From contig QCKG01000002.1 in assembly GCA_003215535.1 (NCBI GenBank), forward strand, positions 1-64,000: DNA of 64,000 nt. The letters are read 5' to 3'. This document shows, in pieces, positions 30,696-31,721 of the stretch. Position 1 is the stretch's first letter. The number at the start of each line of letters is the position of its first letter. The DNA comes from Prochlorococcus sp. AG-409-L18. GTDB lineage: Bacteria; Cyanobacteriota; Cyanobacteriia; PCC-6307; Cyanobiaceae. The position numbers and the translations under genes are program-made. The notes under the pieces are model-generated. The model searched no databases. It was not told where the DNA came from and saw nothing but the letters and a program-made list of their open reading frames with translations.

Positions 30696-30911
30696 TTGGT
30701 TGCTTCTGTGGGATTTAAGCTCGTTTTAATGGCCATTACCTGGCTGCTTGCTCTAATTTTTAGTATGGGTTTGCGTATTTGGGGTGTACAGCACCCAGAA
30801 CCCTTCTTAATTCGGCCGGTGTTGGTTATGGCTTTGCTTTTTCTGCCTTCGCTTTCTTTAGGTGCTTGGGTTTTATTGTTTGGCTTTAGACAGACTCAAT
30901 TGGAAAATTGA
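30696..30911 (+). CDS. Small two-helix membrane protein, conserved hypothetical
   Basis: Up to 71 residues with two clear hydrophobic helices (about 9-27 and 40-64) joined by a loop RIWGVQHPEPFLIRP, and a short polar C-terminus. Codon use and position between a divergent gene and a strong terminator support a real gene. The start is uncertain: TTG at 30696, or ATG at 30729 giving 60 residues (MAITWLLALIF). I do not recognise the family with certainty and assign no function. Confidence 0.6.
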   Translation: MVASVGFKLVLMAITWLLALIFSMGLRIWGVQHPEPFLIRPVLVMALLFLPSLSLGAWVLLFGFRQTQLEN

Positions 30912-30941
30912 AACAAGGTCTAGTTTTTTATGTGCTCATTA

Positions 30942-30977
30942 AAAAACCGACCTCTTATTTATGAGAGGTCGGTTTTT
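30942..30977. terminator. Strong bidirectional intrinsic terminator
   Basis: A perfect 14-base inverted repeat, AAAAACCGACCTCT at 30942-30955 and its complement at 30964-30977, with an 8-base loop. The GC core is CCGACCTCT, and the A/T ends give a U-run on both strands. It is the clearest rho-independent terminator in the window. It closes the small membrane protein gene on the plus strand, and any transcript coming leftwards through 31000-31721 on the minus strand. Confidence 0.9.
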
Positions 30978-31027
30978 AGAGGTGATTGTTGTGAAGCTTT
31001 TGATTGTTGGCGCCTGGGGCCAAGGTT

Positions 31028-31211
31028 TCAGGTGTTTGGCTTTTCTCCTATAAGGGCACCTATAACGATGCAAAGGAGTGTCGACTAAATTGACGCACCT
31101 ACGTAGTCGCTTTAGACGAATAGCCCACAATTAGGTGAAGACTGTTGGAGCAGGAGCCTGTATCAGATTGCTTCTATGAATTCTCAGGTGGCGTGTTGTC
31201 CAAGGACACCT
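31028..31211. repeat. GC-richer segment with six paired AGGTG/CACCT words
   Basis: AGGTG occurs at 31030-31034, 31133-31137 and 31186-31190, and CACCT at 31057-31061, 31096-31100 and 31207-31211. The words alternate so that three hairpins could close with the same 5-bp stem. The first and third units share a longer frame, TCAGGTG at the left and AAGG(G/A)CACCT at the right. The segment looks visibly richer in G and C than its surroundings. It may be a structured RNA or the decayed end of the phage-type gene to its right; I cannot decide which. Confidence 0.45.
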
Positions 31212-31721
31212 CCGAGTTCGATGTAAATACAATCGCGCTTTTTCCTGCATTATGCAATCAGCTTTTACACGCATTGCCGTGGTGAGGTATTTCGTGCAGA
31301 GTAGAAGTGGCGTGCTTTCATCAAGCGCTGATACCTTTGTTATTTCAGTCTCTTGGGGATTGTTTTTGCTTTCGCATTCCAGACAGCCTTTGTTGATGCG
31401 ATATGGAGATAGATGATCGTTTAGGCATTTTTTACCTCGAAAGAATTTCTTTTTTCCAAGCTCTCTAGCGTGCGCATCAGTTAAAGGTATATCTATCTAC
31501 TCTTGAGCTACGTACCCAATCAGTGTTGCTCGGGTCTGACTTGCCATCAATTCTTTTCTTGATTCATGAGAGAGGGAGTCACTAGGAACCTCCCTCTCAT
31601 TACCGCACGTGCAAAGACACCACCAGAAAGCATTTCCAGCTGCTGATCTTCGCTTTGAGTGTCTAACCACTGTTAGAGCTCCATATACTTCTCTTGTTAG
31701 GTCTTTAGGCGGTCGTGGCAT
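31131..31721 (-). pseudogene. Phage-type zinc-motif gene interrupted by an in-frame TAG
   Basis: Read leftwards from ATG at 31719-31721, one frame of 197 codons is open except for TAG at 31497-31499 (codon 75). Before the TAG is DLTREVYGALTVV, then WWCLCTCGNEREV, matching the DLTGxxFGxLTV...WxCxCDCG module common in phage HNH-associated proteins, but the usual final SCGC pair is missing. After the TAG, in the same frame, comes KKFFRGKKCLNDHLSPYR followed by INKGCLEC, which matches the FxxGKxCxxGH...CxEC module of phage proteins, with a Cx3H...Cx2C zinc pattern. No ATG, GTG or TTG occurs for over 60 codons after the TAG, so the second part has no start of its own. The C-terminal 60 residues are very basic. 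The simplest reading is a decaying mobile gene; readthrough is possible. The frame stays open a further 63 codons past TAA at 31131-31133, down to the terminator. Confidence 0.6.
31570..31598. other. Perfect hairpin inside the interrupted phage-type gene
   Basis: GAGAGGGAG at 31570-31578 and CTCCCTCTC at 31590-31598 form a 9-bp stem with an 11-base loop. It lies upstream of the in-frame TAG in the sense of the minus-strand gene, where the homologous module would be expected to lead into its final cysteine pair. No T-run follows, so it is not a typical terminator. Confidence 0.5.

Follow-up and report, generated by a model that had tools for sequence, protein, structure and literature searches.

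The reading frame studied here lies on the minus strand, upstream of argG, in a stretch of 64,000 nucleotides from Prochlorococcus sp. AG-409-L18 (hereafter the window), and it raises the question of whether one gene, broken or recoded, occupies this position. A preliminary description had counted 261 codons with only two internal stops and had read the whole as a decaying or recoded mobile gene of phage type. The frame was reproduced exactly, from the ATG at 31721 to 30939, with a TAG at codon 75, a TAA at codon 197 and the final stop. To place it among its relatives, we searched the DNA of 31950-30939 against 400 Cyanobiaceae genomes and obtained matches in 196 of them, spread over 46 genera and often more than one per genome. 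Conservation of the matched DNA was highest in its 3' part, past the zinc modules. In the relatives, the protein ORF ended some 336-425 nt short of the end of the match; a conserved non-protein element with a terminator at its end followed. The syntenic order was argG, the zinc-protein gene (if present), the RNA gene, a small membrane-type ORF, DUF3134 and mraY. Judged by sequence comparison, the broken frame is a dying protein gene run into an RNA gene (Table 1). The 261-codon frame therefore exists but is not one unit, and its length overstates the gene, since homologous protein sequence reaches only to near 31340, and about 31280-30941 belongs to a separate RNA gene; the latter makes up the last 40% of the frame and had been missed. 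Convergent with the RNA gene, a hydrophobic ORF of 71 aa (30696-30911, plus strand) had no Pfam match and was found at the site in most relatives with about 42-65% identity.

Table 1. Features of the locus, in positions of the window.
Feature	Position	Strand	Basis or remark
Degenerate zinc-protein (ZNP) gene, two zinc modules	31340..31721	-	Deletion and in-frame stop; intact syntenic homologues
TAG in place of Trp105	31497..31499	-	TGG>TAG; Trp in 27/27 intact homologues
Imperfect palindrome GGCAATGCGTGTAAAAGCTGATTGC upstream of the RNA	31254..31278	-	Matches the -58..-29 element in the published passages on Yfr103
RNA gene, apparently Yfr103, ~280 nt	30941..31222	-	5' end inferred from palindrome distance
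Shine-Dalgarno (SD) GGAGG of the micro-ORF	31209..31213	-	Predicted paired with the Thr-Pro-Pro codons of the micro-ORF
Micro-ORF LDNTPPENS, TTG start, stop TAG 31176-31174	31174..31203	-	Conserved
GAAGC, closing-helix 5' arm of the RNA body	31170..31174	-	Covariation/structure analysis
GCTTC, closing-helix 3' arm	30993..30997	-	Covariation/structure analysis
Intrinsic terminator of the RNA, ACCGACCTCT...AGAGGTCGGT then T run	30941..30977	-	

We named the protein ZNP: in relatives it is intact, about 155 residues long, and has two zinc modules joined. Both modules had been noticed before and proved real in a profile search of the two halves: module 1 (window residues 1-52) matched phrog_374, an HNH endonuclease family (E 3.8e-13), and the part after the TAG matched phrog_1081 (E 9.5e-7). 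A Pfam search gave a match for neither part of the broken frame. At the argG-mraY site of relatives, ZNP was intact with both modules in one gene, which confirms the earlier suggestion that they had once been joined. Module 1 lost its second zinc pair through an in-frame deletion of 90 nt near 31560, which removed C63 and C66. Moreover, 6 of the 52 invariant residues were changed and 4 more deleted in the window copy, compared with changes at no more than two in intact homologues; with the stop at an invariant Trp, these lesions bear out that the gene is decaying. In other lineages ZNP at the argG site was truncated, frameshifted or lost, and it decayed independently at three loci (L009, L066 and L067). 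As far as such lesions can tell, 31721-31340 is a ZNP pseudogene, and ordinary in kind.

Marine Synechococcus genera often carried an intact, single-copy ZNP elsewhere in the genome, at sites that are partly syntenic, and several Prochlorococcus also kept it intact. Among 242 genomes of the class, the gene was confined to the family Cyanobiaceae, bar one weak partial hit, and the scan used found none in IMG/VR viral contigs. Phage matches did not exceed about 52% identity and covered one module. Of the two modules, only the N-terminal one resembles phage endonuclease modules. Because ZNP is intact and single-copy in Synechococcus, restricted to the family and absent from the IMG/VR scan, it is, by its distribution, an ancestral family gene in decay here and no recent phage import, and the view of the locus as a mobile, foreign trace is not supported. 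For an HNH catalytic motif, neither Pfam nor NCBIfam gave a match in ZNP, and the PHROG match spans the zinc module only. The AlphaFold2 model of ZNP had a mean pLDDT of 89.6. Sequence and fold searches of the PDB returned nothing significant, and a fold search against viral structure models matched phage endonuclease-type proteins. DNA binding is the likely, putative role of ZNP. The second module was also matched within open frames of about 580-606 aa (G364:C1:1440394-1440618, G045:C1:95904-96083 and G330:C5:79278-79472).

Turning to the RNA gene, we compared it with Yfr103, which has been reported as the most abundant ncRNA of marine picocyanobacteria (PMC5069720). In the passages on Yfr103 of that marine metatranscriptome study (2016; PMC5069720), the RNA measures 290-328 nt, its structure is conserved, an imperfect palindrome spans -58 to -29, and seven paralogues in Synechococcus CC9605 account for 55.2% of its mdRNA-Seq reads. 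The homologues listed there belong to marine Synechococcus and to Prochlorococcus SS120, NATL1A/2A and MIT9303/9313, and these passages name no high-light strain (PMC5069720). The window RNA, at about 280 nt, is slightly under the CC9605 range, and its palindrome stands at the published distance from the inferred RNA start. All 25 genomes tested singly contained RNA matches, from 1 to 11 per genome, and none was present in the listed genomes of genus g17 (putative high-light Prochlorococcus). On the strength of size, copy number, phyletic range and the upstream palindrome at its published distance, the RNA appears to be Yfr103, an identity based on the part of the published description cited above and on phyletic match, not on sequence comparison.

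The structure of the RNA was examined by covariation: compensatory changes occurred in several helices, with two-sided changes at 8 of the 9 base pairs in one helix and at 5 of the 7 in a second. An Rfam scan of the site and five further loci gave no family that fits the RNA, and a search in phage sequences and IMG/VR found none. When a palindrome regulon was sought in the organism's own genome, only the Yfr103 site matched well. A second conserved block, AAGCACGCCATTT-like, lies at 31317-31305 (minus strand) in argG-linked copies, some 90 nt ahead of the putative Yfr103 start, and is a possible regulator site. The same genome holds a diverged second Yfr103 copy (L002 1494-1805, G000:C23) with the micro-ORF MIDAPPEY. 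In another genome, three Yfr103 matches at 450-bp spacing form an apparent tandem array (G074:C1:2267988-2268977).

A micro-ORF was present in 127 of 127 copies covering the site, three fragments being left out of this count; each had GGAGG or a near variant, a spacing of 4-9 nt, an ATG or TTG, and at least 7 codons. It usually reads M(T)xDTPPE... and stops by codon 15; most copies have 7-14 codons and four have 21-47. The window copy starts with the weaker TTG. Held-out loci gave the micro-ORF in 39/39 cases, including a single GTG start and a single SD spacing of 11 nt; core sequences from the first set recur in two of these loci, and five, which the motif filter had missed, were recognized by visual reading. 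In one subfamily (L118, L120, L121 and L139), the core is MRDD(G/D)PTEQ...EA, with SD, start and frame kept.

To tell coding from mere conservation, we analyzed the changes around the start codon and in the conserved codons. In the unique copies, every ATG located 3-10 nt past the SD (106/106) was in frame with the Asp codon, over SD-to-Asp distances of 10-15 nt. The length from SD to start changed 25 times on the tree, 23 of them not by multiples of 3, as against four changes between start and Asp, each of 3 nt (Fisher p 6e-4). No change affected the TG of the start codon, compared with 30 and 22 for the two preceding bases, and where the start did change, it became TTG (4 events) or GTG (one held-out copy) and never a non-start codon. 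Asp-Thr-Pro-Pro was the strongest period-3 window across the whole RNA alignment, with changes at the three codon positions in the ratio 7:4:42 and 40 synonymous against 10 non-synonymous changes. At the Asp codon, which is in the loop, 11 of 14 changes were synonymous; the E codon showed only non-synonymous changes, and the C-terminal residues were variable. In the predicted hairpin, positions 1 and 2 of each Pro codon are paired with the SD; pairing of the SD with the Thr-Pro-Pro codons exceeds 50% in 98 of 113 copies by prediction, and the pair formed by the Thr third base covaries (C-G, A-U, U-G, G-C and G-U). As the period-3 pattern may thus derive in part from SD pairing, the coding case rests on the ATG frame, the indels, the start TG and the Asp codon. 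Furthermore, start codons were picked with the in-frame pattern, so that the indel and start-TG tests lean on the 106/106 ATG count, which is itself independent of that choice. Overall, the SD, the start codon and the reading frame of the micro-ORF are preserved across the family at the level of sequence. Since complete copies carry a conserved frame with a ribosome-binding site, Yfr103 is probably a dual-function RNA that also yields a very short peptide.

The contrary reading, that Yfr103 is purely non-coding, with GGAGG, ATG and CCACC kept as a hairpin for 30S binding or RNA-RNA pairing and the ORF as a by-product, draws on the same hairpin: most copies have the SD paired with the Pro codons, one of the hairpin's pairs covaries, and the RNA body is strongly structured. 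We consider it unlikely, because the loop indels hold the start in frame with Asp-Thr-Pro-Pro even though every SD-to-Asp distance between 10 and 15 nt is represented, the changes of the loop Asp codon are mostly synonymous, and start codons are replaced only by other start codons.

Two further readings concern ZNP. About ten Prochlorococcus loci have ZNP and Yfr103 adjacent and co-oriented at the argG site, as would be expected of one mobile unit or of a protein-RNA partner pair, yet the Synechococcus ZNP loci are without Yfr103 within the flank of up to 4 kb examined, and many genomes have Yfr103 without ZNP; such a unit or pair is very improbable. ZNP as an obligate partner of Yfr103 was rejected on the same Synechococcus flanks. 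Still less credible is continued expression of the window ZNP, as two pieces or joined by readthrough of the TAG. The frame is indeed continuous and the deletion a multiple of 3, but the stop stands at an invariant Trp, the zinc pair C63 and C66 is gone, more invariant residues are changed than in any intact homologue, and other lineages at the site have frameshifts or have lost the gene. Recoding or readthrough, as put forward in the preliminary description, is thus unsupported, given a TAG in place of a Trp found in all 27 homologues together with the deletion and the other lesions.

The explanation we favor as a whole, and regard as likely, combines a ZNP pseudogene with a Yfr103 RNA in which a micro-ORF would be translated, an SD hairpin would govern initiation, and translation would be coupled to folding. 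The RNA has its own promoter region and terminator, and the micro-ORF near its 5' end would be translated. The SD hairpin, formed with the micro-ORF's own codons, would limit initiation, and a ribosome reaching the 3' end of the micro-ORF would invade the helix GAAGC/GCUUC, by which the RNA body is closed. Translation and RNA folding would be coupled in one RNA because the ribosome would open this closing helix. A self-limiting translation switch of this kind is suggested by the anatomy, namely an SD hairpin on the codons of the ORF and the 5' arm of the closing helix at the micro-ORF end. Pairs of prolines (PP) slow ribosomes, and the conserved PP pair may, more speculatively, do so there. 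The more specific proposal, a peptide some 7-14 residues long around a conserved Thr-Pro-Pro core, made under SD-hairpin control, and a ribosome on the ORF that switches the fold of the RNA body, is plausible but falls slightly short of an even chance.

In the literature searched, we found no description of a micro-ORF in Yfr103; the MIT9313 transcriptome paper (doi 10.1038/ismej.2014.57) was outside that search. In one marine metatranscriptome, 55% of a Synechococcus's reads enriched for start sites came from Yfr103 paralogues, in an account that gives their function as unknown in the passages concerned (PMC5069720). If the coding reading is true, the most abundant "non-coding" RNA of marine picocyanobacteria also codes for a peptide. 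The conserved micro-ORF would provide a concrete handle on the role of Yfr103: whether it is translated, whether the peptide or the act of translation is important, and whether the RNA is refolded. It also serves as a warning that annotation and "ncRNA" labels miss very short conserved ORFs.

Compared with known systems, the RNA shares with the published Yfr103 a size of about 280-330 nt, its own terminator, several paralogues, a conserved structure and the upstream palindrome, as well as the lack of a high-light strain in the published list; it differs in that the passages describing Yfr103 call it non-coding and mention no SD-led micro-ORF (PMC5069720). ZNP has the WxCxCxCG zinc module of phrog_374 in residues 1-70, but no HNH catalytic domain is recognised in it. 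With phrog_1081, a family of unknown function, it shares the CxxGHxSPYRxxxGGCxxC module, which in ZNP is joined to the other module in one protein, encoded by a cellular gene of Cyanobiaceae. Dual-function sRNAs with a short ORF include Spot 42/SpfP (15 aa) and SgrS/SgrT. Like these, Yfr103 is structured and reportedly abundant, has a terminator, and bears near its 5' end a short ORF preceded by an SD, whereas its ORF is mostly of 7-14 codons, its SD is predicted to pair with the ORF's own codons, and it occurs as many paralogues.
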